A DNA stretch of 26,850 nucleotides. Origin: a virus. The stretch spans positions 1-26,850 of the IMG/VR virus record IMGVR_UViG_3300025276_000179; one strand, given 5' to 3'. The position numbers and the translations under genes are program-made. The notes below the pieces were generated by a model that saw nothing but the letters and a program-made list of their open reading frames with translations, was not told the DNA's origin and did no database searches. This document shows, one piece after another, positions 5,656-26,850 of the stretch; positions within the stretch are counted from its first letter, which is position 1; each line of letters begins with the position of its first letter.

Positions 5656-5829
5656 TTATTCGACAATATCACATTCCTTTTTACCTTCCCTTCTAAATCG
5701 CTTGTTGTATCCTTTCTTGATATTAGCAGAAACTCCTGCCTTTGTCAAGTAACAATACCATTGCTTTGCATTAGTTAAAACATCAAACTCTGCGCCACTA
5801 TTCATTTTAATCTTCGGATTCTTCTTCAT
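5656..5829 (-). CDS. Small basic protein, 57 residues, unknown function
   Basis: The ATG at 5829 overlaps the TGA of the oxygenase gene (ATGA) and the frame ends with TAA at 5656, 17 bases before the gene 17 start. The protein is strongly basic: KKNPKIKMNSG at the N-terminus, then FDVLTNAKQWYCYLTKAG, and NIKKGYNKRFRREGKK near the end. The aromatic YCYL segment and a lysine/arginine cluster suggest RNA, DNA or acidic-protein binding, but no family is recognised. The tight coupling on both sides and the gap-filling length support a real gene. It could be a cofactor of the oxygenase or of the packaging motor; this is inference. Confidence 0.75.
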   Translation of the reverse strand: MKKNPKIKMNSGAEFDVLTNAKQWYCYLTKAGVSANIKKGYNKRFRREGKKECDIVE

Positions 5830-9296: not shown

Positions 9297-12200
9297 TTAG
9301 TTAACAATAGTACCGTTTACATCATAAACATCGATACGGTAGTGCGAAGGTGATTGACTACCTAATGAACCAGCATCTCCAGAAGAAGCAACGTGTAAGG
9401 TTGAAGCAACTTCTGTTTCGTCTATAGAGATAGTACCTGTTACAGGGTCATAAGCGATACATATCCCACCAATCAATATTGACTTGGCCCCATCGATTCC
9501 GCCAGCAATTGCTTCGGACTTAGCAGTTGCAATACTTGCAGTAGTTGAAGTAGCATCCGCCTTAGTTGCAAGACTTGCAGTAACAGTAGATGCAAAGTTC
9601 GCATCATCTCCTAGAGCAGCAGCTAGTTCGTTAAGAGTATCTAACGAAGCAGGAGCAGCATCAATTACACTAGCAACCGCAGCTGAACCAACACCATCCG
9701 CATAAGATTGCGCGGCAGCTTGAGCAGCATCTGCTTTAGTCGTTGCATCAGCACTTGCAGTAGAGATCGCAGAAGCTTGAGCAGCATTTGACTTACTAGT
9801 CGCATCAGCACTTGCAGTAGAGATCGCAGAAGCTTGAGCAGCATCTACTTTAGTCGTTGCATCAGCACTTGCAGTAGAGATTGCGGCAGCTTGAGCAGCA
9901 TCTGCTTTACTAGTTGCGTCAGTCCCAGCTGCAGCTTGCGCGGCATTTACTTTACTAGTTGCATCAGCAGCAGCAGTTACTTCAGCGGCAGACTGTGCAG
10001 TGGAGATTGCACTTGTCGTACCTAAAGTATCAGTGTAACCAGAAAGATCTACACCAGCAACACCTGAATCAACATATGCTTTAGTTGCCGCATCTGTACC
10101 ACTCGTTGGCGTTCCAAGATTAGAAATCTTGTTTCCGTCCATGTCAACATCAGCAGTCATCTGAATGTCAGTTGAACCTGAAGAGGTGCTAATACCAGAG
10201 ACCTGATTTTGCAGTATAGCAATTGCTTGGTTGTTAATAGTTTCAGCAGAAGTCGCACGAGTTGTTTCGGCAGTTAAGTCAACTTGACTTGCCTTATCAT
10301 CAAGAGCGGTAACATCTGCCTTAGTAGCAAGTGCGGCAGTAGTTGCAACGTCATCTGCCTTAGTACCAATTGAAGCAGTAACAGTTGATGCAAAGTTTGC
10401 GTCATCTCCAAGGGCAGCAGCCAACTCGTTAAGAGTATCTAGAGCAGCAGGAGCAGCATCTACAACATTAGCGACTTCAGTAGTAATTGCTGAGTTCATC
10501 TCTGTAGTAGTTGAGTATGGAGTCAAATCTGTAGAAGGAATTGCAGCGATAGCGGCAGTTCTAGCAGAAGTCTCAACAGCAATAGCAGCAGTCGTCTGTA
10601 CAGTTGTTGAGTACGGAGTTAAGTCAGTTGCAGGAATTGCAGCAATAGCAGCAGTTCTAGCAGCAGTCTCAGCAGCAATAGCAGCAGTCATACCTGAAGT
10701 ATCAGTGTAACCAGAAAGATCTACACCAGCAACACCTGAATCAACATATGCCTTTGTAGCAAATACTGAATCGTCTACAGTATACACTGGAGAAGTTGTT
10801 ACACTAGCGTTCCAGAAATATGTTTTATTTGCCCAATAGTCTCCTACTACAAGAATACCACCAGAAAGATCTGATAATTTAGGAGTCAACGGCCAATCGC
10901 CACTGTTCAGCTGAGGATTGTCAATAGATCCAATTAAAGTTGGAGTACTTAACATATTATAAAGATAAACTTTACCTGCTCTAGAATCACTAGAACCATC
11001 ACCAGTATCGCCTCTTTCAGCACTTACAAATAATGTTCCGTTAGATATTTCAACACCTCTACCATAGGAAGAGTCTTCCGAAGAACCCATACCTCTTTGT
11101 GGATTTACTATAGAAGAAATGTAGGAACCATCTGTCGCGGAGTAAATATAAATTGCGCCAGAGTGGCCACTTGGAGTTTGACCTATAGAACCTTTAGTAC
11201 TTGAAGCTCCAACAACATAATAGTTATCATCCGAAGTGGTAACCAAACCAAAAACACTAGTATCAGATGTGTTTGGGTTATCTAGAGTGTGTATTAAAGA
11301 ACCATCATTTACGTTAAATACAAACACTTTACCACCAGAACCAAACTGATCACCATATGCAAAAGGTGCTCCCACGAGAACCTTATTTCCATGTGATGAT
11401 ACACCGTCCATCTTATCTAGTAAGTATCCAGCGCCAGAAAATTTAGTATAAACTGAAGGGTTTGGATTAGCTATCTTTAGAATCTGATCACTACTAATGT
11501 CATAAACATAAACTGCTCCATTTTCAGAATCCGCTGTATGATCAGAAACAATAACTTTGTCACCGTTAATCGCTACAGACTTACCGAATTCTTTATCTGA
11601 ACCAGAAAAATCAACTCTTGACTTTTCAGCAACTACTGAACCATCAGTTGTTGAATAAACAATAAGTTTTCCCTGACCAGCAAGAACATAATAATCATCG
11701 TTTAATGCTGAAGAAGCACCTAATTTAGCCCAATCTGAACCATTGTAAGGATTTGTGTCTGCAATGAAATAATCTTGATTTACAGACAGATCTTTCCAAT
11801 AAACTCCATATCCCCAAGATCCTTGATTCGACTGACCTTCATAAGTTGCAAAAATTCCTGTCCCATTAGTTTGTACCGTTGTAATAGTACCTCCTTGTGG
11901 CCCACTAGGAAGAGTTTGATATGCGCTATTTACATCCCAAGTCGTTTCGGTAACATTCGCGGAAGAAATTCCAGTTCCAAAGTCTTCTGGTTGTACCGCA
12001 GTATCAGCAAGAGCACCTTGAGCGGCAGTTGCCTTAGTTGCAAGAGCAGCAGTAGTTGCAGCATCATCCGCCTTAGTCGCAAGAGCAGTAGTAGTTGCAG
12101 CATCATCAGCCTTAGAGGCAAGACTAGTAGTAACAGTAGATGCGAAGTTTGCATCGTCACCTAATGCGGCAGCTAGTTCGTTCAACGTATCCAATGCGGC

Positions 12201-15200
12201 AGGAGCAGCGTCTACCGTAGCAGCAACTACTTGGTCTGCATAAGACTGAGCTTCTGACTTAGCAGTTGCAATAGAAGAATCCATTTCAGCAGTAGTTGAG
12301 TATGGAGTCAAGTCAGTTGCAGGAATTGCAGCAATAGCAGCAGTCATACCTGAAGTATCAGTGTAACCAGAAAGATCTACACCAGCAACACCTGAGTCAA
12401 CATATGCTTTTGTAGCAAATACAGATTGGTCTACAACATAATTCGTAGTAGTGTTTAAACTTGCGGTTACTTTAAATGATGCAAGCATATTGCCACGAAC
12501 CTGATTCCTTGTAACAACTATGGCACCATCAACAAAAACGGCAGCACCAAAAAGGTTGCTTTCAAGAATTGCAGCTCCAGCATCATCTCCGCCAAAAATT
12601 ACACCATCATCAAATGCAGCTTGTTGTACCTCATGAGGAATTTCTCCGATATAACTACCATCGGTGGTATTAAAAAAGTGTAATGTTCTACCGTTTATTC
12701 TGAAGTCAGACTGACCATAAGTACCAGACGAATTATCTTGACCTTCTTCATACACTACCAAAGTATCAGTATTTTGATCAAGTGAGATTTTAGCACCAAA
12801 ATTAGTGTCTTTAGATCTTAATCCTGAAGGTAGATTATATGAGTTAGTAAAGGTTCCAGTATTTACATCGAATTCTTCCACCGAATGATAAGTATTGGAT
12901 GTTCCATTACCGTCTCTGTTAGCAAAATAATACTTCCCGTTAACGAAAGCATTAGTCCCAGCCAAAATCCACATATAAGCATCACCTAAGCTAAACGTGG
13001 TTTCTTCGGTTGTCATTCCAGAATCAAAACGATATAATTTTGGTTCATATACTGTCGCATATTGAGAATTAGTTGACTCTACTACATAAACCTTTCCAGC
13101 GGTTGGGTCTGTAAAAATAAAGTCTCCGAAGTTTTTACCGTCTACGGGTTTTATAATCGATCTAACAAGACTACCGTTATGATCAAATACTTGGACAGCG
13201 CCCGAATTATCAGTGCTTGATGTTCGATGATAAGAATGACCAACGTATATGTAATTATCATCTACAGCCAAGCTACGGGCATCCGTATATCCACCACTTT
13301 GCCAAGACCTAGTGTCTATTGTAAAGTTAGTCTGATAAGTTGCTCCACTAGAATCTAGTGTATAGACATAAAGTTCGGAAGTCTGATTGTATGCACCAGC
13401 TTTTAAAACGACTAAAGTATTATTAGACTCACTTGGGTTTAAAGCTATTAGATTACCCCAAGTATTATGTTGGACATAGGACTCAGGATTGGGTATCCAA
13501 TCTATTATATCTCCAGAATCGTTATATACAATCACCAAACCTTCAAAAGATCCCTTTGTGTGAGAAGTATTTCCCCAATTAGAGGCGTTATTACTTGGAG
13601 CCAAAGCATTCTTGAAAGCGGATACAGCAAATGATCCATTATGAACGGACTTGTTATTATTTGCTGGGAGATTTGGTAATACAGCACCAGCATCAATTAC
13701 CGATTGGAAGTCAGCATTGTTAAAGTCATGTGCAGACATGCTTGGGACAGTCCAGTCGTAAGCAGTAGTTGTACTAGACACTAATCCAGTCGATAAATCA
13801 GCAGGTTGCAATGCCGTATCAGCGAGAGCACCTTGAGCGGTAGTTGCAACGGCACTAGAATCTGCCTTAGTAGCAAGAGCAGTAGTGTTAGTAGCAATAT
13901 CAGCAACCGCAGCATCAAGAGCAGTAGAATCTGCCTTAGCGGCAAGACTAGTAGTAACAGTAGATGCGAAGTTTGCATCGTCACCTAGAGCAGCAGCCAA
14001 CTCGTTAAGAGTGTCTAGTGCGGCAGGAGCAGCATCTACAGTTGCAGCGACTTCAGCAGTAATTGCAGTATTCATTTCCGCAGTAGTTGAGTAAGGAGTC
14101 AAGTCAGTTGCAGGAATTGCAGCAATAGCGGCAGTTCTAGCAGCAGTCTCAGCAGCAATAGCAGCAGTCATACCTGAAGTATCAGTGTAACCAGAAAGAT
14201 CTACACCAGCAACACCTGAGTCAACATATGCCTTCGTAGCAAACAATGAATCGTCTACTCCAAAAGAACTGCTTGATGATGTTGTTGGGACTATAGCACG
14301 TATTGCGCTATCATCAACGTTAAGAATAGTTGATCCTGAAAGAGCAGTAAAAATTGGACGACCAGTAATGCCGATAGCTTTTACTAAGTTTCCGTTTGTG
14401 ACATCAAATACGAAAAGTTTACCAGTAGCGCCTCCGGCGAATTCGTTTGCCATAGCGAAACCGTAATTACCATCAATGGCTATAGTACCATTAAATCTTT
14501 GACTACCGCCTCCTTTTAGGCCTAACTTCTTCAGCGTAGTTGGTTCGGGATTCTCAAATGTGGATACATAAGAGTAATCTGACACATTAAACACATCTAT
14601 TGCTCCAGGCGCGTCATTTAGGGGCCCGCCATTCTGAGCAAATCTGACTACTAACAAATACTGATCGTTTGCAATCAAGTTTTCGCCAAAGTACTCATCC
14701 TGAGTATATGCAGATGGAGATGTTAAGTTTTCAAGAACTATAGAAAAAGTTGTCAGATCAACTACACTAACTCTACCTCTATTTTGATCATAGTGTTTGT
14801 GACCACAGAATAGTTTGTCTCCGGAAATTGTAAAGTTTCCACCTATATACTCTCGATTCAAACTATTTAACAAAGTACCATCGATATTATACAAATGTAT
14901 GTAATCAGGCAAATCGAATCCAGAACCGACAACAATCTTATCTTCTCCATAGAATTCTATGTCTGCTTGATAAGAACCATGATCAGCTGGAACGAAAGAG
15001 TAAAGTAAAGAACTATCTGTTAATGAGTGAATTTTAAGTCCTCCAGAAGCACTATCGCCTGGATTTAACACAGCAATTTTATCACTACTCATTGTTATTG
15101 CGGAAAGTTCATCGACACTAATTGAAAATTGCATATTAGTGGGATCAGACATAGGATAAACTTCCACACTTCCGGATACGTGAAAGGCGAAGTGAGTATC

Positions 15201-17846
15201 ATTCGCAAAAAAGTCCGCTTCTCGTTCAGCTGACCGGTTCAAAATTATCCCATCGCTTATTACGTCCTGAGACCAATCAGAAACACTAGTATTAATTGTT
15301 GTAATACCAGTTCCAAAGTCTTCTGGTTGTACCGCAGTATCAGCAAGAGCACCTTGAGCAGTGGTTGCCTTACTAGCAAGAGCAGCAGTAGTTGCAGCAT
15401 CATCAGCTTTAGTCGCAAGAGCAGTAGTAGTTGCAGCATCATCAGCCTTAGAGGCAAGACTAGTAGTAACAGTAGATGCGAAGTTTGCATCGTCACCTAG
15501 AGCAGCAGCCAACTCGTTAAGTGTGTTTAATGAATCTGGCGCGGTATCAATTACATTTGCAACGGCAGTATTTACAGCAGTATCAATATCAGATTGAGTT
15601 AAAAGATCTGAAGTATTCGCTAATTCTACCCAATTACCAGCATGAGCAAAGTAACCTTTACCTGTCGCATGAACATGAGCAAACATACCATGATAAGTAG
15701 TTGCGCTTGGTAAGTCCGCTAATGTTGAGTACATGTTGCCGAATAATACCTTATTTCCACTCATATCTAGGTCAGAACCAGTAACGTCTACGCCAGCAAT
15801 TGCAGTATTCATTTCAGCAGTAGTTGCATATGCAGATAAGTCCACACCAGCGACAGCACTATCAATCACTGTTTGATCAACATTTAAAGTTGTAGTTGAT
15901 CGTAATTCAGCACTAAACGATACTTGTTGCCATCGTGGGTTGGCGTTGTAAATTTCATCGAATACTATAAGACCAGAATTTGTCATAATAGACACATTGA
16001 AAGAGTTACTCTCAAACCATTCTATTTGATTCCAATTAGCTTGATCTGTACCTTCTTGGTTCTGATTTATAATATATCCATCACTCATTGCCTGGGATGG
16101 ATTAGAAGATCCTATAAGATTTCCAGTCGAAGTATCATAAAAATGAATTGATCGTCCAATCAATCGGAAGCTATCTGTCCCCCATTCTCCAGTATTATAA
16201 CTACCCTGTTCGACCACAGATAAAGTTCCAGAAACTTTATCAATATGCATACTCTGACCCCAGTTGGTGTTTGAAGTTCTAGGGATAGGCAATAATGTTT
16301 TATCTAAGACTCCTGTGGTTATATTAATTTTCCACACAGCATTCCATATTCCTGTGGGATAATTAGTACCGTTTTGACTATTATTAACTACATAAAGGTG
16401 ACCATCATAAACTTGCGCCATATTAGGGCCGTAATGAATTGTTGCTTCTGTATCACCACCATAAGGAAAATCATGAGTATAAAGTAAAGAAGATCCATCT
16501 GAATTATAAACTTTCATATATGGATTATAATTACGATCTGTATAATTGCTAGCAGATGAAGCGACAACTATGAGCATATCATTATCAAACCGTACCTGAG
16601 CGCCAAAATTGTCCTTAGCGCTACCGGCAGTATTTGTTCTAATTAAATTTCCAGAAAAATCATAAACTGAGAATCCACCAGAGTCATGACCATTAGAACT
16701 GTCCAAGGGAGCTCCCAAAAAGAGATGTTGATTACTCATGCAAACAGCTCCGTCTACACCGACACCTGACTGTCCTAACCAATGTTGACTGGTTTTTGTA
16801 GCGCCCGTTGAATCTAAATCATAAAACGCCACTTTTGTATTTCCAGTGCCTTGATAGTTTGTCATACCCGCAGTGATAATGACCATTTTTGACCCATCTG
16901 GACTCACTTCTGATGATTTGATGTCTGTGGCGATACCGTATCCGCCAGGAATTTCGGTAAGCGAAGTATCACTCCAAACTACATCAACCATATTACCGTC
17001 TGAATCAAAAATTAATACAGCGCCAGTCTGATAGATGCCATCTGGATTTCCGAGATTATTTGTACTTTCTACACTGGGCGTATCAAAACTACCATAGTAC
17101 TTAGAGACGGCACCATTTGTGAATTGCCAGCTGGCAAACCGCGAAAGAGTCAGGGTACTAAATGTACCAGTAGTTGATGTTTGACATTGTTGTGTCGGTG
17201 TAGAAATCTGAAATCCATTTCCGGCCGATTCGGGATAATCATTATGATTTTGAAGTAATTCGTTCCAAGCAGGAAGCATTTTATTGGACACCGATTCGTA
17301 AGTTTGAGTCGCCCAACTATAATTATTAACAGTGGTTTCTGTGAAACCAGTTCCTTTATCCATAACTGCTAATGTACCGAGATCTCCAGGCTGTACCGCA
17401 GTATCAGCGAGTGCGCCTTGATTAAAAGAGGCCACACCATTTGTGATTTGTGCAGTAACCGCATCCAAGTCTGCTTGTTGTGCGGCAGTATCAGCAAGAG
17501 CACCTTGAGCAGCAGTTGCTACGCCACTTGCAAGAGTTTGTTGAATCTGCGTAATTGCAGTTGAATTATTGGTGATTAAAGTTGAAATGTCACCGTCTTC
17601 ACTTTGGAATAAAGCGACAATCTCTTGGAGTGTATCCAAGTGTTCCGGAGAAGTGCCAAGGATTGTATCTACCTGTGCCTGAAGTGCTGCGAGGTCAGTC
17701 GCGACTGCTTCGTTCACAGCATCAGTGATTGCTGGCAGTAAAAGTTTTCCTTCTTCGGTAATGACTATTTGGCCGCCGACTACTACTTCACCAACGATGT
17801 CGACACCATTTTGTATTCTAAATTTCTTGTTATTTGTAGAACTCAT
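9297..17846 (-). CDS. Giant modular tail fibre with four beta-propeller-like domains (2849 residues)
   Basis: The N-terminus (FRIQNGVDIVGEVVVGG) and C-terminus (LGSQSPSHYRIDVYDVNG) are typical of marine T4-like phage fibres. Coiled-coil-like linkers separate four beta-rich modules at about residues 169-655, 850-1197, 1361-1805 and 1967-2355. The modules repeat blade-like units (GAVYVYD..., FGKSVAINGDKVIVS, LFLGAPLDSSNG) as in FG-GAP or PQQ-like beta-propellers. Each is preceded by QGALADTA(V/L)QP and most are followed by FATKAYVDSGVAGVDL. Modules 1 and 3 resemble each other; 2 and 4 share their flanking linkers. Residues about 703-740 hold a His-rich knob (AHVHATGKGYFAHAGNW). Five LDTLNELAAALGDDANF-type units recur. 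The likely role is a surface-exposed, host-binding trimeric fibre. No enzyme active site is recognised. It is preceded by a 68-base gap with a hairpin and ends in a strong terminator. Confidence 0.8.
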   Translation of the reverse strand: MSSTNNKKFRIQNGVDIVGEVVVGGQIVITEEGKLLLPAITDAVNEAVATDLAALQAQVDTILGTSPEHLDTLQEIVALFQSEDGDISTLITNNSTAITQIQQTLASGVATAAQGALADTAAQQADLDAVTAQITNGVASFNQGALADTAVQPGDLGTLAVMDKGTGFTETTVNNYSWATQTYESVSNKMLPAWNELLQNHNDYPESAGNGFQISTPTQQCQTSTTGTFSTLTLSRFASWQFTNGAVSKYYGSFDTPSVESTNNLGNPDGIYQTGAVLIFDSDGNMVDVVWSDTSLTEIPGGYGIATDIKSSEVSPDGSKMVIITAGMTNYQGTGNTKVAFYDLDSTGATKTSQHWLGQSGVGVDGAVCMSNQHLFLGAPLDSSNGHDSGGFSVYDFSGNLIRTNTAGSAKDNFGAQVRFDNDMLIVVASSASNYTDRNYNPYMKVYNSDGSSLLYTHDFPYGGDTEATIHYGPNMAQVYDGHLYVVNNSQNGTNYPTGIWNAVWKINITTGVLDKTLLPIPRTSNTNWGQSMHIDKVSGTLSVVEQGSYNTGEWGTDSFRLIGRSIHFYDTSTGNLIGSSNPSQAMSDGYIINQNQEGTDQANWNQIEWFESNSFNVSIMTNSGLIVFDEIYNANPRWQQVSFSAELRSTTTLNVDQTVIDSAVAGVDLSAYATTAEMNTAIAGVDVTGSDLDMSGNKVLFGNMYSTLADLPSATTYHGMFAHVHATGKGYFAHAGNWVELANTSDLLTQSDIDTAVNTAVANVIDTAPDSLNTLNELAAALGDDANFASTVTTSLASKADDAATTTALATKADDAATTAALASKATTAQGALADTAVQPEDFGTGITTINTSVSDWSQDVISDGIILNRSAEREADFFANDTHFAFHVSGSVEVYPMSDPTNMQFSISVDELSAITMSSDKIAVLNPGDSASGGLKIHSLTDSSLLYSFVPADHGSYQADIEFYGEDKIVVGSGFDLPDYIHLYNIDGTLLNSLNREYIGGNFTISGDKLFCGHKHYDQNRGRVSVVDLTTFSIVLENLTSPSAYTQDEYFGENLIANDQYLLVVRFAQNGGPLNDAPGAIDVFNVSDYSYVSTFENPEPTTLKKLGLKGGGSQRFNGTIAIDGNYGFAMANEFAGGATGKLFVFDVTNGNLVKAIGITGRPIFTALSGSTILNVDDSAIRAIVPTTSSSSSFGVDDSLFATKAYVDSGVAGVDLSGYTDTSGMTAAIAAETAARTAAIAAIPATDLTPYSTTAEMNTAITAEVAATVDAAPAALDTLNELAAALGDDANFASTVTTSLAAKADSTALDAAVADIATNTTALATKADSSAVATTAQGALADTALQPADLSTGLVSSTTTAYDWTVPSMSAHDFNNADFQSVIDAGAVLPNLPANNNKSVHNGSFAVSAFKNALAPSNNASNWGNTSHTKGSFEGLVIVYNDSGDIIDWIPNPESYVQHNTWGNLIALNPSESNNTLVVLKAGAYNQTSELYVYTLDSSGATYQTNFTIDTRSWQSGGYTDARSLAVDDNYIYVGHSYHRTSSTDNSGAVQVFDHNGSLVRSIIKPVDGKNFGDFIFTDPTAGKVYVVESTNSQYATVYEPKLYRFDSGMTTEETTFSLGDAYMWILAGTNAFVNGKYYFANRDGNGTSNTYHSVEEFDVNTGTFTNSYNLPSGLRSKDTNFGAKISLDQNTDTLVVYEEGQDNSSGTYGQSDFRINGRTLHFFNTTDGSYIGEIPHEVQQAAFDDGVIFGGDDAGAAILESNLFGAAVFVDGAIVVTRNQVRGNMLASFKVTASLNTTTNYVVDQSVFATKAYVDSGVAGVDLSGYTDTSGMTAAIAAIPATDLTPYSTTAEMDSSIATAKSEAQSYADQVVAATVDAAPAALDTLNELAAALGDDANFASTVTTSLASKADDAATTTALATKADDAATTAALATKATAAQGALADTAVQPEDFGTGISSANVTETTWDVNSAYQTLPSGPQGGTITTVQTNGTGIFATYEGQSNQGSWGYGVYWKDLSVNQDYFIADTNPYNGSDWAKLGASSALNDDYYVLAGQGKLIVYSTTDGSVVAEKSRVDFSGSDKEFGKSVAINGDKVIVSDHTADSENGAVYVYDISSDQILKIANPNPSVYTKFSGAGYLLDKMDGVSSHGNKVLVGAPFAYGDQFGSGGKVFVFNVNDGSLIHTLDNPNTSDTSVFGLVTTSDDNYYVVGASSTKGSIGQTPSGHSGAIYIYSATDGSYISSIVNPQRGMGSSEDSSYGRGVEISNGTLFVSAERGDTGDGSSDSRAGKVYLYNMLSTPTLIGSIDNPQLNSGDWPLTPKLSDLSGGILVVGDYWANKTYFWNASVTTSPVYTVDDSVFATKAYVDSGVAGVDLSGYTDTSGMTAAIAAETAARTAAIAAIPATDLTPYSTTVQTTAAIAVETSARTAAIAAIPSTDLTPYSTTTEMNSAITTEVANVVDAAPAALDTLNELAAALGDDANFASTVTASIGTKADDVATTAALATKADVTALDDKASQVDLTAETTRATSAETINNQAIAILQNQVSGISTSSGSTDIQMTADVDMDGNKISNLGTPTSGTDAATKAYVDSGVAGVDLSGYTDTLGTTSAISTAQSAAEVTAAADATSKVNAAQAAAGTDATSKADAAQAAAISTASADATTKVDAAQASAISTASADATSKSNAAQASAISTASADATTKADAAQAAAQSYADGVGSAAVASVIDAAPASLDTLNELAAALGDDANFASTVTASLATKADATSTTASIATAKSEAIAGGIDGAKSILIGGICIAYDPVTGTISIDETEVASTLHVASSGDAGSLGSQSPSHYRIDVYDVNGTIVN
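9751..9921 (-). repeat. 57-bp tandem coding repeat, three copies
   Basis: The motif beginning GCACTTGCAGTAGAGA (plus strand) starts at 9751, 9808 and 9865, an exact 57-base period. It encodes the 19-residue unit AISTASADATTKVDAAQAS near the C-terminus of the giant fibre, an Ala-rich and probably helical spacer. Confidence 0.92.
10621..10770 (-). repeat. Linker repeat following propeller module 4
   Basis: This is the partner of the repeat at 14101-14250. Both follow a 'B-type' propeller module, which supports duplication of a two-module unit. Within the linkers, an exact 43-base core recurs four times, at 10025-10067, 10697-10739, 12353-12395 and 14177-14219. It encodes SGVAGVDLSGYTDT and neighbouring residues. 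Confidence 0.92.
11971..12163 (-). repeat. Linker repeat preceding propeller module 4 (copy 2)
   Basis: This is the second copy of the 193-base linker found at 15307-15499. High base identity between the linkers contrasts with strong divergence of the propeller modules they flank, which suggests recent duplication or gene conversion. Confidence 0.9.
14101..14250 (-). repeat. Linker repeat following propeller module 2
   Basis: Bases 14101-14220 match 10621-10740 at 118 of 120 positions by direct comparison, with transitions at the 30th and 120th base. The region encodes FATKAYVDSGVAGVDLSGY and the ten-residue unit ETAARTAAIA. A third, shorter version at about 12311-12410 lacks one 30-base unit. 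Confidence 0.92.
15307..15499 (-). repeat. Linker repeat preceding propeller module 2 (copy 1)
   Basis: This 193-base coding stretch matches 11971-12163 with only about 7 differences counted by eye, including a run of more than 80 identical bases. The offset of 3336 bases is a multiple of three. It encodes the (T/A)TTALATKADDAATT...AQGALADTAVQPEDFG linker. Confidence 0.9.
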
Positions 17847-17914: not shown

Positions 17915-20900
17915 TTATGCGTCGATATACGAAGCGGATACTGATACTACTGCACCAGCAATAGATGCGGTATATGTTAATTCAACACTTGAACCATTTA
18001 CCTGAACGTCGGTATCACCAAGTATATTATTACCTGTGAATATAATACCGTACTCAGTTATATATGCTTCTGTTCCGTCATGGATAACTAGACATTCGCG
18101 AGTCTCGAATTCACCGTTGTTTTCTACAGTGACTACGTACTTAGCAGAACGAGTCATAGTCTTGTTGAATGCAGAAACTACTGTAGCAGAAGTTCCGACA
18201 ACAACATCGTTACCCTGTTCGAAGACTTTGATGTTATCAGCAAGAGTTTCAATACCGACCGACTTAGGATCTAGTACACCAACCGAGTTGGTAGACTGAG
18301 CGATTATTACTGCCTGTGTACCGACCGGAAGTGCAGCCATGAATGTAATTTGTTGAGAAACAGCATCAATCGAATAGTGAACCGATGGATCCTGAATAAC
18401 ACCACCAACAAATACCATTGCGTTAGCTTCTTGAGTGTAGAAGTCTATAGCGAAAGTAGACTGTGCACCGTCACCAGAAATCACTTGACGTTTTGCGTCA
18501 TTAAATGCTAATTCTTTAGGATCTACAAGTTCAATACCTGACCCATCTGTCTTAACACGAGCAACAAAACCTTCTTTACCAGCAATTGTTGAATCAGTGA
18601 CATCGGATAGTTCAGTAAATGCTTTAGAAGTATCTAATGAGAACACACCGTCTGTCTCAGATACCTTTCCTTCGCCAGCAACGTCAACTACAGATACCGC
18701 AGCGTGTACGCGTTCTGGAGTGAAGTATTTGTTAGAACTGTCTTCCGAAAGATCAGCAGTAGAGAATTGAGAGATATGTTGAGCAGCAAGATCTGAAACT
18801 AATTGTCCCTTGTTTACAGCATCAGCATCAGCAGTACCATTAGCAAGACCAGAAACTTTGTTTCCACCCATTGCTAGGTCGCCTGTCATAGAATCTCCAG
18901 ACTTCTGAACACGTCCGTCGATTTGAGTCTGTAGACCAGTATCAGCCGCAGCGAACTCGCCACGTACCGCAGTATCACCAGCGATTCGATCACTAATTTC
19001 TTGTGCAAGACCAGAAGTGTTAGTTGCGATGTCAGTTTGGTTCTGAGTGATCAGACCAGTTAGAGTACCATCAGCATTTTGGAATGCAGAAACGATCTCA
19101 GTCAATGAATCAAGAGCAGCACTATCAGTGTTTGAAGTGATGAAGTCGATTTGACCTTGTAGAGAACCTTCAACACCCTGTGCGCGAGATGATTCAGTGA
19201 CGATTGACTGTGCGTTAGTGTTGATTAAGACACCGTTAGCAACTTCAGCCGCAGTAGCGCGAGAAACTTCTGTTGCCAGGTTAGATGTTAATACACCTTC
19301 GACAGCAATAGCACGAGCAATTTCAGAATCTATCTGTGATTGCAAGTTAACATCACCAGCGACTCGATCGTCATCAGCAGATTTGATTGCAGTATCTAAC
19401 TTCTTGTCTGCATCGGTTAGAGACGTAGATAGATCAATAAAGTTAGTGTTTTCTGGAGCAGAGTATGTTCCATCAGCGTTTACTCCAGCAGCAAGTTGAG
19501 TTGCAGACATCTCTGATTCAAGTACTGTAGCACGTGTGTCTAGTGCGTTATCGGCAACTTGACGTGCAGTTGACTCTGTAGAGATCTTACTGTCTAAGAC
19601 GACATCAGCATTATCACGTAGAGTTGCTTCACCAGCAACGATACCGTCTGCGTAAATCTTAGCAGCAGCTTCAGCATCATCTGCTTCTGATTCTGCATAA
19701 GACTGTGCAGATGCAAGAACAGCTGCGTCACGTGCAGTATAGTCTGCTTGATCAGTAACACGATCTGCTGCGAGATCAGAACGGATTAGTGCGTCAGCAG
19801 CAGTACGTAATAAGATTTCTGAAGCAAGTGCGTCACTATCAGCATCAGCGTTAGCTTCAGCAGTAGTCATACGACCTTCGATTGAATCTACTTCACCGTG
19901 AATCTCATTGATTGCACCAGTGATGATTTGAGAAGTAGTATCGAAAACACCAGTACCTAACTTAGTTTCTAAGTTATCGATGTCACTCTCGTTAACTGTT
20001 AGACGACCACCTTGTAGTGTCTGTTCAGTTTCTAGAGCAGTTGCTCGTGACTCAACAGCAGTTGCACGTCCTTCGACAGCATCCATTTCACTTTCTAGAG
20101 TAGATACCTTAACAGCTTCTGCGTCTAGTTCAGTGTGGATCTCGTTGATTGCAGCAGTAACATCAGTTGCTACAGTAGCAAGTACTGTAGTACCCATCTG
20201 AGTTTGTAGAGTGTCAACATGACCTTCTTCTGTAGATACACGTGATTCTAGAGATGTTGCACGACCTTCTACTGCGTCCATTTCAGACTGTAGAGTATCA
20301 ACATTTGCTTCTTCTGTAGTAACACGAGCAGCAAGAGCAACAGCGGATGCAACAGCTGCATCCATTTCTGTATGCAATTCATTGATTGCTCCAGATACGT
20401 TAGTTTCCGCAGTATCGAGAGTAGCAGAACCTTGCTTGGTTTCTAAGTCAGTTGCGCGAGTTTCTAGAGAAGTTGCACGTCCTTCGACAGCAGTTGCACG
20501 GCCTTCGACAGCAGTTGCACGAGATTCTAAGTCAGTTGCACGTACTTCAACAGCGTCCATCTCTGTTTGTAGAGTATCGACGTGACCAGCTTCAATATCT
20601 AGTTCTGCGTGAATCTCATTGATTGCGGCAGATAGGTCAGTTGCAGTAGTTTCTAGAGTAGAAGAACCTTGCTTAGTTTCTAGTGAACTGATGCTTGCTT
20701 CATTAACATTCAAACGACCATTCTGAGTAACTTGTTCACTTTCTAGAGCAGTTGCACGTGACTCAACACCAGTAGATCTAGCTTCAACATCAGTTGCGCG
20801 AGTTTCTAGAGAAGTTGCACGTCCTTCGACATTAGTCAGTCGACCAGAGTTAGCAGTAATGATACCTTGAATATCTGAGTCAGCATCTTCAAACGCAGCA

Positions 20901-23821
20901 ACGATTTCTTGTAGAGTGTCTAGAGTTTCTGGAGAAGTACCAATGATTGCATCGACACGACCAGTTACACTATCCACATCAGTACGTAGACCAGCTTCAA
21001 CACCAGACGCACGATTTACTTCAGCAGTAATCTGTGCTTGGTTGTCTGCGTGGTCACTAGCTTGTAGGTTTGTTAATGCAAGAATGTCTGCATCGTTAGT
21101 GATAACTTGTGATTGAACACTATCCACATCAGTACGTAGACCAGCTTCGATTCCTTCTGCACGTGATTTCTCAGTAGCAATAGCGGAAGCGTTAACAACT
21201 TCTGCGGCAGTAGCGCGAGCAACTTCAGCAGTAATTTGTGATTGGTTGTCTGCATGGTCAGATGCTTGTAGAGTTTCTAGAGCAAGAATGTCTGCATCGT
21301 TTGCAGTAATTTGTGCTTGTTGTAAATCTACATCAGAACGTAGACCAGCTTCAATACCAGATGCACGAGTAACTTCAGCAGCGATTGCAGTTGAGTTAAC
21401 AACTTCAGCAGCAGTTGCACGAGTAACTTCAGCAGTAATTTGTGATTGGTTATCATCGTGGTCACTTGACTGTAGAGTTGCAAGAGCAGAAATATCAGAA
21501 TCGTTAGAAGTGATCTGTCCTTGTAAAGAATCGACAGAAGTCTGTAGACCAGCTTCAACACCAGACGCACGATTTACTTCAGCAGTAATCTGTGCTTGGT
21601 TGTCGGCATGATCAGATGCTTGAAGTGTTTCTGCACTATCGATACGTGATCCTAAAGCAGATTCTGCAGCTAGAGCACGAGTATTTTCAGAAACTATTGA
21701 ACCGGCATTTGCAGTAATGTTTACAGTATTAGTGTTAACGTCTGTACGTAGTCCAGCTTCAACAGCTTCAGCACGTTGACGTTCAGTGACAACAGCTGCA
21801 GCATTAGTTGATTCTGCACCTTGTGCACGTGTAACTTCAGCAGTAACTTGAGTTTGGATATTAGAATCAGCAAGAATTCGAGCAGCTTCTTCAGCGTCGA
21901 TTTGACCTTGTAGACTTGAATCGCCAGATGCACGAGCAACTTCTTCTGCACGTAGATCAATTTCATTCTGTGCAGCAAGAGCTTCGACAGAGTCCATATC
22001 ACCTTCTAGTACAGTAGTACGTAGAGATAGTGCGTCATCAGCAGCCAAACGAGTCGCTGCTTCAGCAGAAACCTGTGAGTCCGTGTATGCATATGATTCT
22101 GACTTTGCAGTTGCGATACGAGAAGTAATAGTGTTACCGACAGAACCGTCTACAGATGCGTCACCGATAAGTGCAGTATCTTTTGCGTCAGCATGTGCCT
22201 TAGCAACTGCTTCATGTGAGTCTGCTTCTTGATCAGTGTAAGACTTAGCAGCAGCAAGAGTAGCTGCATCATTAGAGATACGAGCAGTTTCTTCTGTGTC
22301 AATCTGTGACTGTAAACCAGCATCAGCAGTTGAACGAGTTGACGCTTCACTATTGATATTAGTTTGTAGAACACCTTCAGCACTTGTTGCTCGAGAAGTC
22401 TCACTAGAGATTGCAGTAGTGTTAGATGCAACTAGAGCAGACATATCAGAGTCAGCACCTTCGAATGCACTAACAATTTCCGTTAGTGAGTCAAGAGCAG
22501 CTGGATCAGTATTAGTAGTAATAAAGTCAATTTGTGTCTGTAATGCAGAATCTCCTGCGATACGAGCAGCAGTTTCATTAGAATCCGCAGTTGTTAGATC
22601 AGCAAGCTCTGCATCGTTTGAAGTGATCTGTGACTGTAAGCTAGACTCGACAGTTTCCGAACGTGTCTTCTCGACTAATACTTTAGAAGAGGCATCAGCA
22701 GAAGAGAAAGTTTGAGCAGATATTCTAGAAGTTGTAATACGATCAGTTACAGTATTGTTGGTGGTTCCATCTACAGTAGCATCACCAAGCTTTAATGCGT
22801 CTTGTGTGTCTGCGTGTGCCTGAGCAGCATTCTGTGCAGCAACAATGTCAGCGCCTAACTCAGTACGAACCTGAGTATCAGCAATAGCGCGAGCAGTGAT
22901 TTCGTCTTGTAGATTTTGAGCGTTTGCAAGTTCTGAACCAGTAGCACGAGCAATTTCGTCAGCAACATCTTGTGTAAGAACTGCTTCTGCAGCACTAGCA
23001 CGAGCAACTTCAGTAGTAACTTGTGACTGTAGAGAAACCGAAGTTTGTTCTTCAGTAGTAACACGAGCAGCAAGAGCAGTATCAGCAGAGATACGTGCAA
23101 TCTCTTCTGCACTTAGGAGAGAAGTGTTCGCAAGTTCTGCCGCTGTAGCACGAGCAGTTTCAACAGCAATTGCAGTTGCATTTTCAGTCTCTTTACCAGT
23201 TGCACGTGCAGTTTCCGCAGTAATTGCAGAAGAATTAGCAATGATAGAACCAGATAATACATCATCCGCACCTTCAAATGCAGCAATGACTTCTACGAAA
23301 GAATCGATTGCGCTTTGATCAGTATTGCTTAGAATGTCATCAATTCGGCCAGAGAGCGCAGTATCAGCTGACTGAGATGCTACTTCAATTGAATCTTCAC
23401 GTAGTGTTGCACGGGTTGCTTCAGCAGTAATGTTAGATTGTAGAGTAACATCTGCTTGAGCGCGTGTAGATGCTTCTGCGTCGATGTTAGATTGTAGTAA
23501 AGTCTCAGCCGCTGAAGCACGGTTAGTTTCTACTAATACAGATGCAGCGATATCGCCTGCAACAGCTGTTTTAGCACGTTGATCAGTGAAATATAGGTTA
23601 GTTCCTTCTGATAAATCAGTTGTTGAGAATGATGCAAAGAATGCGTCTGCACCAATTTTCTTTAATGAGTCAGAATTGACATCATAAAGAAGGGTGAAAC
23701 AGTCCGCTGGATTAATCATGCCTGTAAGGGTGGTTTGTCCCTGTACTGCACTTTCATCAAGCTTGGTATTTAGTACTGCTTTATCCGCTAATGCAGCGGA
23801 TTTAATCTGCCTAAAAGCCAT
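17915..23821 (-). CDS. Giant segmented coiled-coil fibre protein (1968 residues)
   Basis: The ATG start is preceded by AGGAG with a 7-base spacer. An N-terminal head (about 1-100) includes DLSEGTNLYFTDQRAKTAV, a common fibre module. Residues about 100-1680 are almost entirely heptad-like Ala/Glu/Arg/Thr segments (ETARATAAE, QITAEVTRATAAE). Interspersed are four 'DSLTEIVSAFEGAD'-type turns, a block of 50- and 68-residue repeats (about 725-940), strict heptads such as VEGRATAVEGRAT (about 1088-1127) and four GAINEIH modules. The C-terminus (about 1684-1968) is beta-rich. It has a second 'NKYFTPERVHAAV' copy and a VFVGGVIQDPSVHYSID module like those in the upstream small proteins. This is most likely a homotrimeric fibre or whisker; T4 carries the segmented coiled-coil fibritin (wac) near this position. 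It could also be a proximal tail-fibre subunit. Confidence 0.8.
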   Translation of the reverse strand: MAFRQIKSAALADKAVLNTKLDESAVQGQTTLTGMINPADCFTLLYDVNSDSLKKIGADAFFASFSTTDLSEGTNLYFTDQRAKTAVAGDIAASVLVETNRASAAETLLQSNIDAEASTRAQADVTLQSNITAEATRATLREDSIEVASQSADTALSGRIDDILSNTDQSAIDSFVEVIAAFEGADDVLSGSIIANSSAITAETARATGKETENATAIAVETARATAAELANTSLLSAEEIARISADTALAARVTTEEQTSVSLQSQVTTEVARASAAEAVLTQDVADEIARATGSELANAQNLQDEITARAIADTQVRTELGADIVAAQNAAQAHADTQDALKLGDATVDGTTNNTVTDRITTSRISAQTFSSADASSKVLVEKTRSETVESSLQSQITSNDAELADLTTADSNETAARIAGDSALQTQIDFITTNTDPAALDSLTEIVSAFEGADSDMSALVASNTTAISSETSRATSAEGVLQTNINSEASTRSTADAGLQSQIDTEETARISNDAATLAAAKSYTDQEADSHEAVAKAHADAKDTALIGDASVDGSVGNTITSRIATAKSESYAYTDSQVSAEAATRLAADDALSLRTTVLEGDMDSVEALAAQNEIDLRAEEVARASGDSSLQGQIDAEEAARILADSNIQTQVTAEVTRAQGAESTNAAAVVTERQRAEAVEAGLRTDVNTNTVNITANAGSIVSENTRALAAESALGSRIDSAETLQASDHADNQAQITAEVNRASGVEAGLQTSVDSLQGQITSNDSDISALATLQSSDHDDNQSQITAEVTRATAAEVVNSTAIAAEVTRASGIEAGLRSDVDLQQAQITANDADILALETLQASDHADNQSQITAEVARATAAEVVNASAIATEKSRAEGIEAGLRTDVDSVQSQVITNDADILALTNLQASDHADNQAQITAEVNRASGVEAGLRTDVDSVTGRVDAIIGTSPETLDTLQEIVAAFEDADSDIQGIITANSGRLTNVEGRATSLETRATDVEARSTGVESRATALESEQVTQNGRLNVNEASISSLETKQGSSTLETTATDLSAAINEIHAELDIEAGHVDTLQTEMDAVEVRATDLESRATAVEGRATAVEGRATSLETRATDLETKQGSATLDTAETNVSGAINELHTEMDAAVASAVALAARVTTEEANVDTLQSEMDAVEGRATSLESRVSTEEGHVDTLQTQMGTTVLATVATDVTAAINEIHTELDAEAVKVSTLESEMDAVEGRATAVESRATALETEQTLQGGRLTVNESDIDNLETKLGTGVFDTTSQIITGAINEIHGEVDSIEGRMTTAEANADADSDALASEILLRTAADALIRSDLAADRVTDQADYTARDAAVLASAQSYAESEADDAEAAAKIYADGIVAGEATLRDNADVVLDSKISTESTARQVADNALDTRATVLESEMSATQLAAGVNADGTYSAPENTNFIDLSTSLTDADKKLDTAIKSADDDRVAGDVNLQSQIDSEIARAIAVEGVLTSNLATEVSRATAAEVANGVLINTNAQSIVTESSRAQGVEGSLQGQIDFITSNTDSAALDSLTEIVSAFQNADGTLTGLITQNQTDIATNTSGLAQEISDRIAGDTAVRGEFAAADTGLQTQIDGRVQKSGDSMTGDLAMGGNKVSGLANGTADADAVNKGQLVSDLAAQHISQFSTADLSEDSSNKYFTPERVHAAVSVVDVAGEGKVSETDGVFSLDTSKAFTELSDVTDSTIAGKEGFVARVKTDGSGIELVDPKELAFNDAKRQVISGDGAQSTFAIDFYTQEANAMVFVGGVIQDPSVHYSIDAVSQQITFMAALPVGTQAVIIAQSTNSVGVLDPKSVGIETLADNIKVFEQGNDVVVGTSATVVSAFNKTMTRSAKYVVTVENNGEFETRECLVIHDGTEAYITEYGIIFTGNNILGDTDVQVNGSSVELTYTASIAGAVVSVSASYIDA
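20440..20565 (-). repeat. 21-bp (heptad) microrepeats
   Basis: The DNA repeats with a 21-base period and encodes successive heptads of the form (V/L)E(G/T/S)RAT(A/S/D). Adjacent copies such as VEGRATAVEGRAT are nearly identical at base level. A similar but more diverged block lies at about 20735-20835. A perfect seven-residue repeat is direct evidence for a regular coiled coil. Confidence 0.85.
21031..21640 (-). repeat. 204-bp and 150-bp tandem coding repeats in the coiled-coil gene
   Basis: The same motif (minus strand, encoding DNQ(S/A)QITAEV) starts at 21031, 21235, 21439 and 21589, giving spacings of 204, 204 and 150 bases. The 68-residue unit is the 50-residue unit plus an 18-residue insert of the ATAAEVVNSTAIAAEVTR type. 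Each unit also carries LQASDHADNQ and IEAGLR(S/T)DVDS. Repeats in whole codons extend the fibre without breaking the reading frame. Confidence 0.9.
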
Positions 23822-23889: not shown

Positions 23890-24255
23890 TTAACGAAATT
23901 TAATATAGATGTCCGTTCCTTTTGGAGGAATCTCAAAAAATTGTATAGTGTTGTCGATAGTCTCATAGATTTCTTCAGGATGCTGAAGAACGTCGTTAAC
24001 CCAAACATCGATTAAATCATCGCGAGTTGGGATTCCATTCAGAGTGAATATTGCAGTGTCTCCTTCGGCAGTAATAGATTGTGCTTCTGGAATAATTGTT
24101 CGTCCACTTGTTGAGGATGAGGTACCCTCAATCAACTCAAATAATTGAGTCTCTTGTCCGGGCTCAGTATTAACTTGTTCTTCCTTAGATTTAGCTAGGT
24201 TGAACAAACTTTCTGCTAATACTCGATTTATAGATTTATTATTGATGTTAATCAT
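23890..24255 (-). CDS. Small virion protein with 'VNDVLQ' module
   Basis: 121 residues. The N-terminal 35 residues look helical (INRVLAESLFNLAKSKEEQ), followed by a Ser/Thr/Gly-rich linker. The C-terminal half (about 60-121) is a beta module: TAEGDTAIFTLNGIP, then IDVWVNDVLQHPEEIYETIDNTIQFFEIPPKGTDIYIKF. The same strand pattern recurs in the 290-residue upstream protein and near the C-terminus of the giant protein immediately downstream, so it is probably a virion or fibre component that shares an interaction domain with them. A late promoter lies about 38 bases upstream, and the gap to the next gene is 68 bases. No enzyme motif is visible. The product name is deliberately generic. Confidence 0.55.
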   Translation of the reverse strand: MININNKSINRVLAESLFNLAKSKEEQVNTEPGQETQLFELIEGTSSSTSGRTIIPEAQSITAEGDTAIFTLNGIPTRDDLIDVWVNDVLQHPEEIYETIDNTIQFFEIPPKGTDIYIKFR

Positions 24256-24374: not shown

Positions 24375-25247
24375 TTAAGATAATAAAGCTTTTATTTCTG
24401 CAATGTCGCTATCTAAAGAATCGAGTCTAGACTCTAACTGATCTATCGTAGTTTGTGTGGTGATGTTCTCACCATTTAGTGTGTAGGAACCAAGAAGTTG
24501 GACTCCTGTTTGATCCAGTATAAACCTATCATCATTAAGGTATTGCATCTTAAACTTAGCATCATTGAATCCCATATGTTTTAATATGGTATCTACGCTA
24601 TTGTGATAGAATCTGGTTTCTTCGTCTGTACCTACTGTAAATGCAAAGTGATCATCTACGATAAGGTCGTTACCAAGAGAAACACCTGTCGAGTTGTAAG
24701 CTGCTAGCTGTATTACCATCTCAGCATCTACTAGGTGTGTTAGGACAATACTGTCCCCTGTATCTGCAACGTAGTCAATCCCTTGGTGGAGTAAGACACC
24801 GTTTAGATATACCTGAACTTTTGAGGCGTAATTTGGGTTTGGGTCATACTCTAGTACGTTACCGGAATCATCGACTCCAGTAATTGTTTGTAGGGTTCCG
24901 TCTGAGGTGTATATGTAGGAGTTGAAAGTTGTTGTAGCAGAAAGATTGTCGGTTCCAGTTCCAATTTCTACGATCGTCTGAATACCCCCGTCATACTCTC
25001 TCTTTATATAGACCTTACCGTCTTGAGTATTAATCCCGAACTCACCAAGCTTTAACTCTTCGATACTAGGAATATCACCCAGACCATCAAATGATTTGAT
25101 GTTTGCACCGATGTGTTGAGTCACAGCACTGATAGGACGGCCGACAGTGACCTTTCTTATTTTAGTTCCGCCACTACCAACTCCACCAATTCTTTTAACT
25201 AGAGTGTCGCTCGAAGTACCAGTTGTAGAGATCTTCCGTATAGGCAT
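24375..25247 (-). CDS. Virion or tail-fibre protein with 'VYLNGVLL' module
   Basis: 290 residues. The basic, Gly-rich N-terminus (about 1-45) may anchor the protein. Around residues 60-95 comes LKLGEFGINTQDGKVYIKR, a motif common at the start of phage fibre or hyaluronidase-type proteins. Residues about 105-190 hold a beta-rich module ending KVQVYLNGVLLHQGIDY and a strand of the form SIVLTHLVDAEMVIQLAAY. The last 20 residues (TIDQLESRLDSLDSDIAEIKALL) form clean heptads, a probable trimeric coiled coil. This architecture suggests a short fibre or fibre adaptor. It lies in the same transcription unit as the preceding 118-residue protein, 7 bases after its stop. The exact position in the virion is unknown. 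Confidence 0.6.
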   Translation of the reverse strand: MPIRKISTTGTSSDTLVKRIGGVGSGGTKIRKVTVGRPISAVTQHIGANIKSFDGLGDIPSIEELKLGEFGINTQDGKVYIKREYDGGIQTIVEIGTGTDNLSATTTFNSYIYTSDGTLQTITGVDDSGNVLEYDPNPNYASKVQVYLNGVLLHQGIDYVADTGDSIVLTHLVDAEMVIQLAAYNSTGVSLGNDLIVDDHFAFTVGTDEETRFYHNSVDTILKHMGFNDAKFKMQYLNDDRFILDQTGVQLLGSYTLNGENITTQTTIDQLESRLDSLDSDIAEIKALLS

Positions 25248-25254
25248 GAGAGAT

Positions 25255-25611
25255 TTACCTTGTTACCGAAGGATTAACTTTAATTTTACCTTCCAACACC
25301 CTTTCTACGATAGAATTTCCGTTTGAGTCGATATAACTTAATTCGACATCATATACATATCTACCACGAGTAGATAGTGCGTCGGTTTGAATATTGGTTA
25401 GTGCGAGAGTAACAACACCATTTGTTGCAGGATCTGCCACAATAGCATTGAAGTCAACGGTATCTGCTGCTGTACTTCTGAAGGTTTTCTTCATTTTAGC
25501 AGTAACGGTATATCCGTTTAGGTTCTTTGTAGAGCCATCAGGGTCAACTAACTCTAGTTGTAGAGCCAAGTCGGAACCTTGATCAATTGTGAAATCTTCG
25601 TAAGTTGCCAT
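25255..25611 (-). CDS. Small virion structural protein (beta-sandwich, possibly baseplate or fibre associated)
   Basis: This 118-residue protein is taken from the ATG at 25611; a TTG three codons upstream is a poorer start. The pattern is IDQGSDLALQLELVDPDG near the N-terminus, then LNGYTVTAKMKK, an interrupted set of alternating strands, GRYVYDVELSYIDSNG, and a terminal KVNPSVTR. This resembles a small structural protein recurrent in T4-like marine phages, with an Ig-like or BppU-N-terminal-like beta-sandwich. No signal peptide, membrane segment or catalytic motif is seen. It has its own late promoter and is followed after 7 bases by the next virion gene, so the two probably form one transcription unit. 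A role as an adaptor between baseplate and fibres is inferred from the neighbourhood, not from a specific motif. Confidence 0.6.
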   Translation of the reverse strand: MATYEDFTIDQGSDLALQLELVDPDGSTKNLNGYTVTAKMKKTFRSTAADTVDFNAIVADPATNGVVTLALTNIQTDALSTRGRYVYDVELSYIDSNGNSIVERVLEGKIKVNPSVTR

Positions 25612-25651
25612 ATTCTTCAAAACCTTAAACTGTTTATAAAACGTCTACCTC

Positions 25652-25686: not shown

Positions 25687-26394
25687 TTAATCTTTAGACT
25701 CGATATCTGCTAAGACCATCTCACGGAAGTCCGCTGATGCGTCTGAGTAATCAAACACATAAGATACCGTACAACGCCAGTCTTCAGTAGAAGCTGCGTG
25801 ATACATTACTTTATCTTCTTCACCGTAGTGACCGAAGTATGCTGCTTTGCATGTCCACTTACCAGCTTCGTCTTGACTACGGATAACTTCCTTAGTTTCA
25901 GGATGAATGTAGTCAAAGTAACCAGAACCGTCTTCTGAGTATGAGAAAATTAAGTTATAGCCCGGAGCATTCGCATTGTTATGCCAAGAAATAAATCCTC
26001 CTGGCGGATATACTGCCGCTAGTGCGTTATGTTTTACTGATAAAAAGTTCATCATCTTATCGTTAAGATCACGTAGATGGTGAGTCATGTCACGTTTGAA
26101 AACAGGATCGGCATCCTTCTCAAACATCATATGAGCTTTATCAGAAAGTTTGAAGTTGTAACCAACAAGTTCGTCTGGAAAACCTTCGTGTCTTGTGTCT
26201 TGTGCAACAATCTCTTCCATATGCTTAGGGCCCACATAGTATGGACGCTGACGAATATGTTGTGAGGAGGACAAGTGACAGTTTTTTTCAAAACCATGTA
26301 TGGTATGTAACTTAGCGTATTCGTTTAGAACCTCTAACAGTTCAGGGTTATTAACCTCAACGTGTCTGAGGTATTGGTCGTTTACCTGTGTCAT
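25687..26394 (-). CDS. 2OG-Fe(II) oxygenase-like protein with HNN in place of HxD
   Basis: This 235-residue protein starts at the ATG (26394-26392) that overlaps the TGA of the glycosyltransferase-like gene. An upstream in-frame extension would sit wholly inside that gene and is not used. The C-terminal half looks like a double-stranded beta-helix oxygenase of the type common in T4-like marine phages: YPPGGFISWHNN around residues 129-140, a PGYNLIFSYSEDGSGYF core strand, then MYHAASTEDWRCTVSYVF at 197-214. H199 would be the distal iron ligand and R207 the 2-oxoglutarate-binding Arg. The first motif is H138-N139-N140, so the acidic residue of the facial triad is missing. It may use a neutral ligand, bind iron differently or be non-catalytic. 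Pairing with a glycosyltransferase fits a hydroxylate-then-glycosylate step, but that is inference. Confidence 0.6.
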   Translation of the reverse strand: MTQVNDQYLRHVEVNNPELLEVLNEYAKLHTIHGFEKNCHLSSSQHIRQRPYYVGPKHMEEIVAQDTRHEGFPDELVGYNFKLSDKAHMMFEKDADPVFKRDMTHHLRDLNDKMMNFLSVKHNALAAVYPPGGFISWHNNANAPGYNLIFSYSEDGSGYFDYIHPETKEVIRSQDEAGKWTCKAAYFGHYGEEDKVMYHAASTEDWRCTVSYVFDYSDASADFREMVLADIESKD

Positions 26395-26850
26395 ACGATT
26401 GGAGTATCCTTGTTTAACCCAGCAGAGAAGTGACGTAATATCACCGGCCCACTTTCGGGTTTTGTGATTGCCCAATTAAGGGCATTGTAATAATTCCACC
26501 TCAAGTCATCATCGAAGATACCAACTTTGAGGTCTTTGTATTTAGGTTCTTTCTCAGTTAACCACCAAAGAGAGAATTGATCCCAAGACTTTAGAGAATC
26601 AATATAACCTTCCGGCCACCAAGTGTCGTTCATTTGTTTGTAGGTTAAGTCCCACCAGTCATCCATAAATTCACGTACAATAGGTTTTGACATATCATAT
26701 AAACATACACCACCACATAGAGTGAATTTAGCCATACCTTCTGGTGTGGAGAAATCACGTTCCGCATAAATGTAATCACGGTCATCAGTCAATGCTGAGA
26801 AGACCACGTCGTGATCTTTCATTTCATCCCAAACTTTAATAATATCTTCG
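26391..26850 (-). CDS. Glycosyltransferase-like protein (5' end outside window)
   Basis: The reading frame stays open to the window edge upstream of the first visible Met (26822), so the N-terminus is missing. About 153 residues are visible. They resemble the C-terminal half of a GT-A fold (GT8-like) sugar transferase. Visible signs are a Gly-Gly segment followed by a hydrophobic strand (CGGVCLYD), a Trp-rich helix, a later Asp-Gln motif (SWDQFSLWW), and a C-terminal His/Gly/Lys motif (RHFSAGLNK) like the one that completes the metal and nucleotide-sugar site in such enzymes. The expected upstream DxD motif would lie outside the window. The TGA stop overlaps the ATG of the next gene (ATGA), so the two are probably translated together. 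The likely role is transfer of a sugar to a virion protein, DNA or host envelope component; the substrate cannot be inferred. The family call is from motif pattern only. Confidence 0.55.
   Translation of the reverse strand, partial: EDIIKVWDEMKDHDVVFSALTDDRDYIYAERDFSTPEGMAKFTLCGGVCLYDMSKPIVREFMDDWWDLTYKQMNDTWWPEGYIDSLKSWDQFSLWWLTEKEPKYKDLKVGIFDDDLRWNYYNALNWAITKPESGPVILRHFSAGLNKDTPIV

Follow-up and report, generated by a model that had tools for sequence, protein, structure and literature searches.

An asparagine at the acidic iron-ligand position in every relative examined of a phage protein with a predicted 2-oxoglutarate oxygenase fold

In a T4-like phage, a gene that lies beside tail-fibre genes and a sugar-transferase gene encodes a protein whose predicted model has the P4H/PHD2/AlkB fold and whose sequence carries Asn where the acidic ligand of a 2-oxoglutarate (2OG)-Fe(II) oxygenase is normally found. 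Because the acid position is Asn in every relative examined, the protein is perhaps a functional enzyme whose iron site is unusual. The best explanation of the data, in which we place moderate confidence, is an active 2-His-1-Asn Fe(II)/2OG-type enzyme that modifies the tail fibre together with a glycosyltransferase. The window analysed is a 26,850-base virus record (IMGVR_UViG_3300025276_000179) with T4-like head and tail genes, including those for portal, tail tube, sheath and terminase. The gene (25687–26394, minus strand, ATG at 26392–26394) forms a single ATG-started frame of 235 codons plus a stop, with the boundaries and strand that a sequence-only reading of this DNA had assigned; after its central motif we refer to it as the HxN gene. 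It is under purifying selection, with dN/dS of 0.040–0.094 in eight comparisons whose dS values (1.03–1.52) are near saturation.

The structure of the 235-aa protein was predicted from 65 aligned sequences, and the resulting model (pLDDT 93.3, pTM 0.90) contains the double-stranded beta-helix of the Fe(II)/2-oxoglutarate oxygenase superfamily. Foldseek against the PDB returned P. putida P4H (4j25) as the top match (E 1.5e-5, TM 0.43/0.53), and then PHD2 and AlkB. With VIA-align, where rows no more than 1 Z apart were treated as tied, the best match was PHD2 (3oui; Z 11.4, rmsd 4.1, 154 residues aligned), and P4H 4j25 scored Z 10.5, the BesD hydroxylase homolog 7jsd Z 9.8 and BesD 6nie Z 9.6 (rmsd 4.8, 164 aligned). 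Agreement with oxygenase structures is limited, the Foldseek TM values being modest and the VIA-align rmsd 4–5 Å. The resemblance is not due to chance, since both programs put the model on P4H/PHD2/AlkB structures. The best 50 structure rows of each are all 2OG-dependent or putative oxygenases. The earlier impression that the protein looks like a 2OG-Fe(II) enzyme is therefore supported by a confident model with that fold.

Curated family models do not place the protein in the superfamily, as searches of Pfam and NCBIfam gave no 2OG oxygenase model, and a PDB sequence search returned no match. The PHROG family annotated as 2OG-Fe(II) oxygenase (phrog_61) was matched by 10 of 67 HxN members within an E limit of 0.1 (best value 0.0014), and for phrog_274 the best E was 0.04. 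In BFVD, the best match was an uncharacterised phage protein (A0A6J7WTX7; 27% identity, TM 0.76/0.82).

The candidate active-site residues follow one another in the order Y129...W-H138-N139-N140...H199...R207, and the residue numbers that the sequence-only reading gave for H138, N139-N140, H199 and R207 are correct. His138 (codon 25981–25983; this and all codons below are on the minus strand), the proposed first iron His, ends the predicted strand 134–138. His199 (25798–25800), the proposed second iron His, starts strand 199–202, and Arg207 (25774–25776), the proposed Arg for the 2OG C5-carboxylate, starts strand 207–214. These strand ends and starts are where the HxD motif, the distal His and the 2OG Arg sit in this fold, and the distal His on beta-VII and the Arg/Lys on beta-VIII are represented by H199 and R207. 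Tyr129 (26008–26010) lies at the end of beta-I, nine residues ahead of H138, and is a proposed 2OG contact, a role that we assume from AlkB and PHD2. Asn140 (AAT, 25975–25977) stands where the superfamily normally has its acidic iron ligand. The 3oui alignment ends at residue 216 of the model and 392 of PHD2, and by arithmetic from these ranges the offset of 176 would put R207 on PHD2 residue 383. Arithmetic of the same kind, in place of a printed alignment, would put H138 (+175) on residue 313, the first iron His of PHD2, and N140 on D315. The phage protein is thus like P4H and PHD2 (EGLN1) in fold over nearly its whole length (Z 10–11) and in having a His at the end of beta-II, a His at the start of beta-VII and an Arg at the start of beta-VIII, but unlike them in carrying HxN instead of HxD and in showing no detectable sequence match.

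The family was aligned as 153 distinct rows, drawn from 299 matching ORFs (155 distinct) among the matches listed. H138 and N140 are present in 153/153 of these relatives, and Y129, H199 and R207 in 152/153, the one other row being gapped there. Relatives down to 28% identity, in three paralog groups, are all HxN, so that the HxD/E...H facial triad is found in none of the 153 distinct rows. The claim that Asn holds the usual acid position is thereby extended from one protein to a family. The sample itself favours Asn, because many loci were fetched with patterns that contained the motif (WHNN, WHTN or WHN); each search also used other patterns. Family searches covered at most the best 80 of 122, the best 80 of 467 and the best 80 of 204 loci. 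A profile search of 12 further records gave 28 matches that are all HxN, the profile itself having been built from HxN sequences. IMG/VR was also scanned for forms of the motif whose codon at the Asn position starts with G (Asp, Glu, Gly, Ala or Val), which yielded three stretches and no family member.

Could another acidic residue complete the site? The alignment was thinned to 78 representatives (<90% identity), among which acids elsewhere in the protein vary: E154 is present in 69/78, and position 74 is D or E in 67/78. The sole strictly invariant acid is Asp175 (25870–25872; 153/153 rows and 78/78 representatives), in the beta-V/VI turn that joins predicted strands 170–174 and 179–187. From strand topology we infer that D175 is not a metal ligand, because its turn, like the start of the R207 strand, is at the barrel end away from the metal. 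An alternative HxD inside the protein was sought, and none that fits was found.

A midpoint-rooted tree was built from 153 of the 155 distinct ORFs after a length cut. It contains a clade of 23 sequences (support 0.999) and a clade of 54 (support 0.928). The 76 tail-locus sequences are not united in one clade: 75 surround the 23-clade at low support values (0.337, 0.757), and one, L270, lies beside the 54-clade. Used as a query, this farther relative returned its own contig alone. Groups were defined from the tree alone and their neighbouring genes then counted. The second group, of 23, lies by tail tube and uvsY genes in 16/16 loci with room on both sides, and the third, of 54, by dnaB in 44/45 such loci; nifU was considered as a constant neighbour of the third group and rejected, being present in only 20/45. 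All 23 sequences of the second group read HNN, and 53/54 of the third read HTN; in the tail locus the motif is HNN in 71/76 sequences, and the five exceptions carry His, Thr or Ser at its central position. The third place is Asn in all sequences of all three groups. As a separate observation, an Asp follows two residues past the Asn (HxNxD) in 51/54 members of the third group (e.g., L086:30131-30805), and outside this group it was seen in just two sequences, L268 and L301, both from the second. Because the two His, the Asn and the residues assigned to 2OG are invariant across groups with different neighbours, we favour a working rather than a dead site.

Among annotated phage records, Phage C48C1 (Kyanoviridae), on which no literature was found, is the sole one with the HxN family at E 1e-3 or better; the other records listed in a search with E up to 10 are at E of at least 3. 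C48C1 has three HxN copies, and the 12 further records of the profile search have three copies in six cases, two in four and one in two. The profile of this family (A2; E up to 1) found it in 0/4 of P-SSM2, S-PM2, syn9 and HTVC008M. The cyanophage oxygenases of phrog_61 and phrog_274 come, like C48C1, from T4-like phages of the Kyanoviridae, but those read show HxD or HxE, unlike the HxN family. Membership of the family among the cyanophage oxygenases was rejected, as the A2 family profile gave a 15-column match (probability 6.5) against five of them, although in that match WHNN is aligned opposite an H-x-D stretch. A cellular origin was likewise rejected. The two genome-scan loci (L283, L284) belong to a single 142-kb MAG contig, with open frames that are phage-like by eye. 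This contig, JAAXIF010000028.1, was binned in a Sphingobacteriales MAG, carries three HxN copies (the third via the profile search) and is probably a mis-binned phage.

The gene directly upstream of the HxN gene in the window (26391–26849, minus strand) is cut by the end of the stretch, leaving the C-terminal 152 aa without the DxD pattern, and its stop overlaps the HxN start as ATGA. A full-length relative was modelled (pLDDT 93.4) and matched to glycogenin (3t7n; Z 17.6, rmsd 2.9, 189 aligned) and the Skp1 galactosyltransferase (6mw5; Z 15.4). Pfam Glycos_transf_2 was sub-threshold (E 0.0011). The DxD pattern is present in 64/66 distinct glycosyltransferase ORFs, the incomplete copy in the window being one of the two without it. 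Judged from the model, the upstream gene encodes a glycogenin-like protein of GT-A fold with DxD, its GT8 assignment being by structure only. This gene is directly upstream in 70/70 tail-group ORFs whose upstream sequence extends for 800 nt or more, as compared to 0/19 and 0/53 in the other two groups; a small gene precedes it in 69 of those 70, and the ATGA overlap is found in 60/72 pairs.

In relatives, an aromatic-repeat fibre gene is located farther upstream of the glycosyltransferase gene; in the record studied here it would lie past the end of the 26,850-nt stretch. The upstream fibre protein of C48C1 has 3347 aa, with 10.4% Tyr, 0.9% Lys and 1.8% Pro. In four of six upstream fibre proteins, the residue four positions after an aromatic one is itself aromatic in 0.46–0.56 of cases, over a base of 0.12–0.16, and in the other two, both from L066, this period-4 signal is weak or absent (0.25, 0.11). 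Of the loci with 5 kb upstream, 45/53 reach 40 repeat tetrads and 8/53 score 10–27. Two giant fibre proteins (L082:11012-21055 and L087:2748-6707) have an aromatic residue every four positions and end in ETYTLYVRVA; the repeat length of such proteins varies widely among relatives.

Downstream of the HxN gene, the next gene (25255–25620, minus strand) encodes a protein like LtfC, which assembles L-shaped tail fibres (phrog_3304, E 6.5e-18); its best PHROG match is phrog_1084 (function unknown; E 4.3e-22), and its Pfam LtfC score of 24.6 bits is under the cut-off of 27. It is followed on the same strand by a 290-aa tail fibre locus protein (24375–25247) with weak PHROG and Pfam matches alone, and by a 121-aa protein with weak tail-fibre similarity (23890–24255; phrog_2710, E 9.2e-5). 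Two large repetitive proteins beyond these, of 1968 aa (17915–23821, minus strand) and 2849 aa (9297–17846, minus strand), are probably fibres, as judged from their translations and locus position. Elsewhere in the family, a different repetitive protein (L066:6652-8574) is found 3' of the HxN gene in place of the assembly gene, and in another locus the HxN gene is followed by two more open frames that are glycosyltransferase-like by eye (L067:6690-8104).

The overlap with a glycogenin-like transferase gene and the nearby Tyr-rich fibre suggest that the tail-locus HxN protein serves fibre maturation. In the mechanism that we favour, that of an active non-haem iron enzyme, Fe(II) would be held by His138 and His199, and 2OG by Arg207 and Tyr129. 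Asn140, replacing Asp/Glu, might coordinate weakly as a neutral third ligand, or might sit in the second shell and leave a site for water. The overlapping genes are probably translationally coupled, and the HxN protein would act with the glycosyltransferase from the gene just upstream. The likely substrate is the aromatic-repeat tail fibre of the relatives, and the enzyme could hydroxylate or otherwise oxidise side chains of the fibre, perhaps ahead of or alongside the attachment of sugar. A role in fibre modification cannot hold for the family as a whole, since two of the three paralog groups are encoded at a distance from the fibre genes.

Pairs of an oxygenase-fold enzyme and a glycosyltransferase are found elsewhere. 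LH3 is a lysyl hydroxylase and glycosyltransferase acting on collagen, and the Dictyostelium Skp1 pathway combines a P4H with glycosyltransferases; glycogenin glucosylates Tyr. The phage pair is like both systems in this combination and unlike them in having separate overlapping phage genes, a Tyr-rich fibre poor in Lys and Pro, and an HxN site. Against fibre maturation, glycosyltransferases of related phages have been interpreted as acting on host O-chain (PMC7029224).

The acidic ligand is treated as a superfamily signature on which searches commonly rely (PMC10947486), and its loss raises the question of whether the HxN protein turns over at all. A pseudo-enzyme that retains the fold as a binding or assembly module, such as a fibre chaperone or a glycosyltransferase scaffold, is in line with the position of the gene next to a fibre assembly gene and with P4H, where Asp to Ala or Gly variants lose activity (PMC2767507; the tabulated variants examined include no Asn). 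Dead sites usually drift, however, and here both proposed iron His residues, the Asn, Arg207 and Tyr129 are kept, gaps aside, in three groups with different surroundings. We therefore rank a dead enzyme as less likely than an active one, and see it as doubtful; the loss of catalysis raised in the sequence-only reading is disfavoured on the same grounds. The nearest precedent for an acid-free hydroxylase is AspH (aspartate/asparagine beta-hydroxylase), which is active with two His and no acidic ligand (HXG...H; PMC10947486). The HxN family is like AspH in having no acidic ligand and unlike it in having Asn rather than Gly at that position, so the AspH-type motif is not the one found here.

An active enzyme could also exploit the Asn. 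It would be a neutral ligand that has been selected for, tuning the iron-oxo species beyond plain hydroxylation (e.g., to oxidation, halogenation or cross-linking of regularly spaced fibre Tyr) and coupled with the glycogenin-like glycosyltransferase in maturing the tail fibre, an extension of the favoured reading that we regard as unlikely. Very unlikely, in our estimate, is a non-iron, sugar- or metal-binding jelly roll of the cupin kind that serves the glycosyltransferase or the fibre: it would suit a tail locus with a glycosyltransferase, but the best rows of each structure search are oxygenases throughout and the 2OG Arg is kept.

The sequence-only reading, whose 2OG-Fe(II) fold and Asn at the acid place are supported, also drew an analogy to 2OG-dependent halogenases. 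Halide in a free site beside Asn140 would be in line with the missing acid and with the match of the model to BesD 6nie. The Fe/2OG halogenases (BesD, SyrB2) share the fold and the absent acid but carry Gly or Ala with halide, while the HxN family has Asn in all 153 rows; Asn is about the size of Asp and would fill, or crowd, the halide site, so the analogy is unsupported by sequence. Nor is the BesD match better than those of the hydroxylases 7jsd and PHD2, and we consider a halogenase-like enzyme highly improbable. Just as improbable is post-translational deamidation of Asn140 to give an ordinary HxD hydroxylase, which would account for an otherwise normal site and is chemically open to an Asn in an exposed turn, but a single base change (AAT to GAT) would suffice for Asp, and still every row keeps Asn; the position after it usually holds Ala, Tyr or Phe, and in no row Gly.

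We return to the active 2-His-1-Asn enzyme as the preferred explanation. A literature search for a 2OG enzyme with a His-X-Asn triad gave none among the matches listed, and a term search of a review of atypical iron centres (PMC4019311) found no mention of Asn or asparagine. An invariant-Asn family with up to three paralogs per phage would join HxD/E and HxG/A as the third solution found in nature. With one of its paralog groups tied to a glycosyltransferase and a fibre, the family would make phage fibre maturation via oxidation and glycosylation testable.

The window contains a second 2OG-Fe(II) oxygenase protein, with a canonical HKD motif, outside the tail locus (5826–6380, minus strand; Pfam 2OG-FeII_Oxy_3, 31.4 bits vs. 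a cut-off of 27). Its gene sits between the terminase subunit genes. The PHROG to which it belongs (274) is labelled DNA endonuclease V, a label that looks wrong from sequence, because the phrog_274 matches read carry oxygenase motifs.
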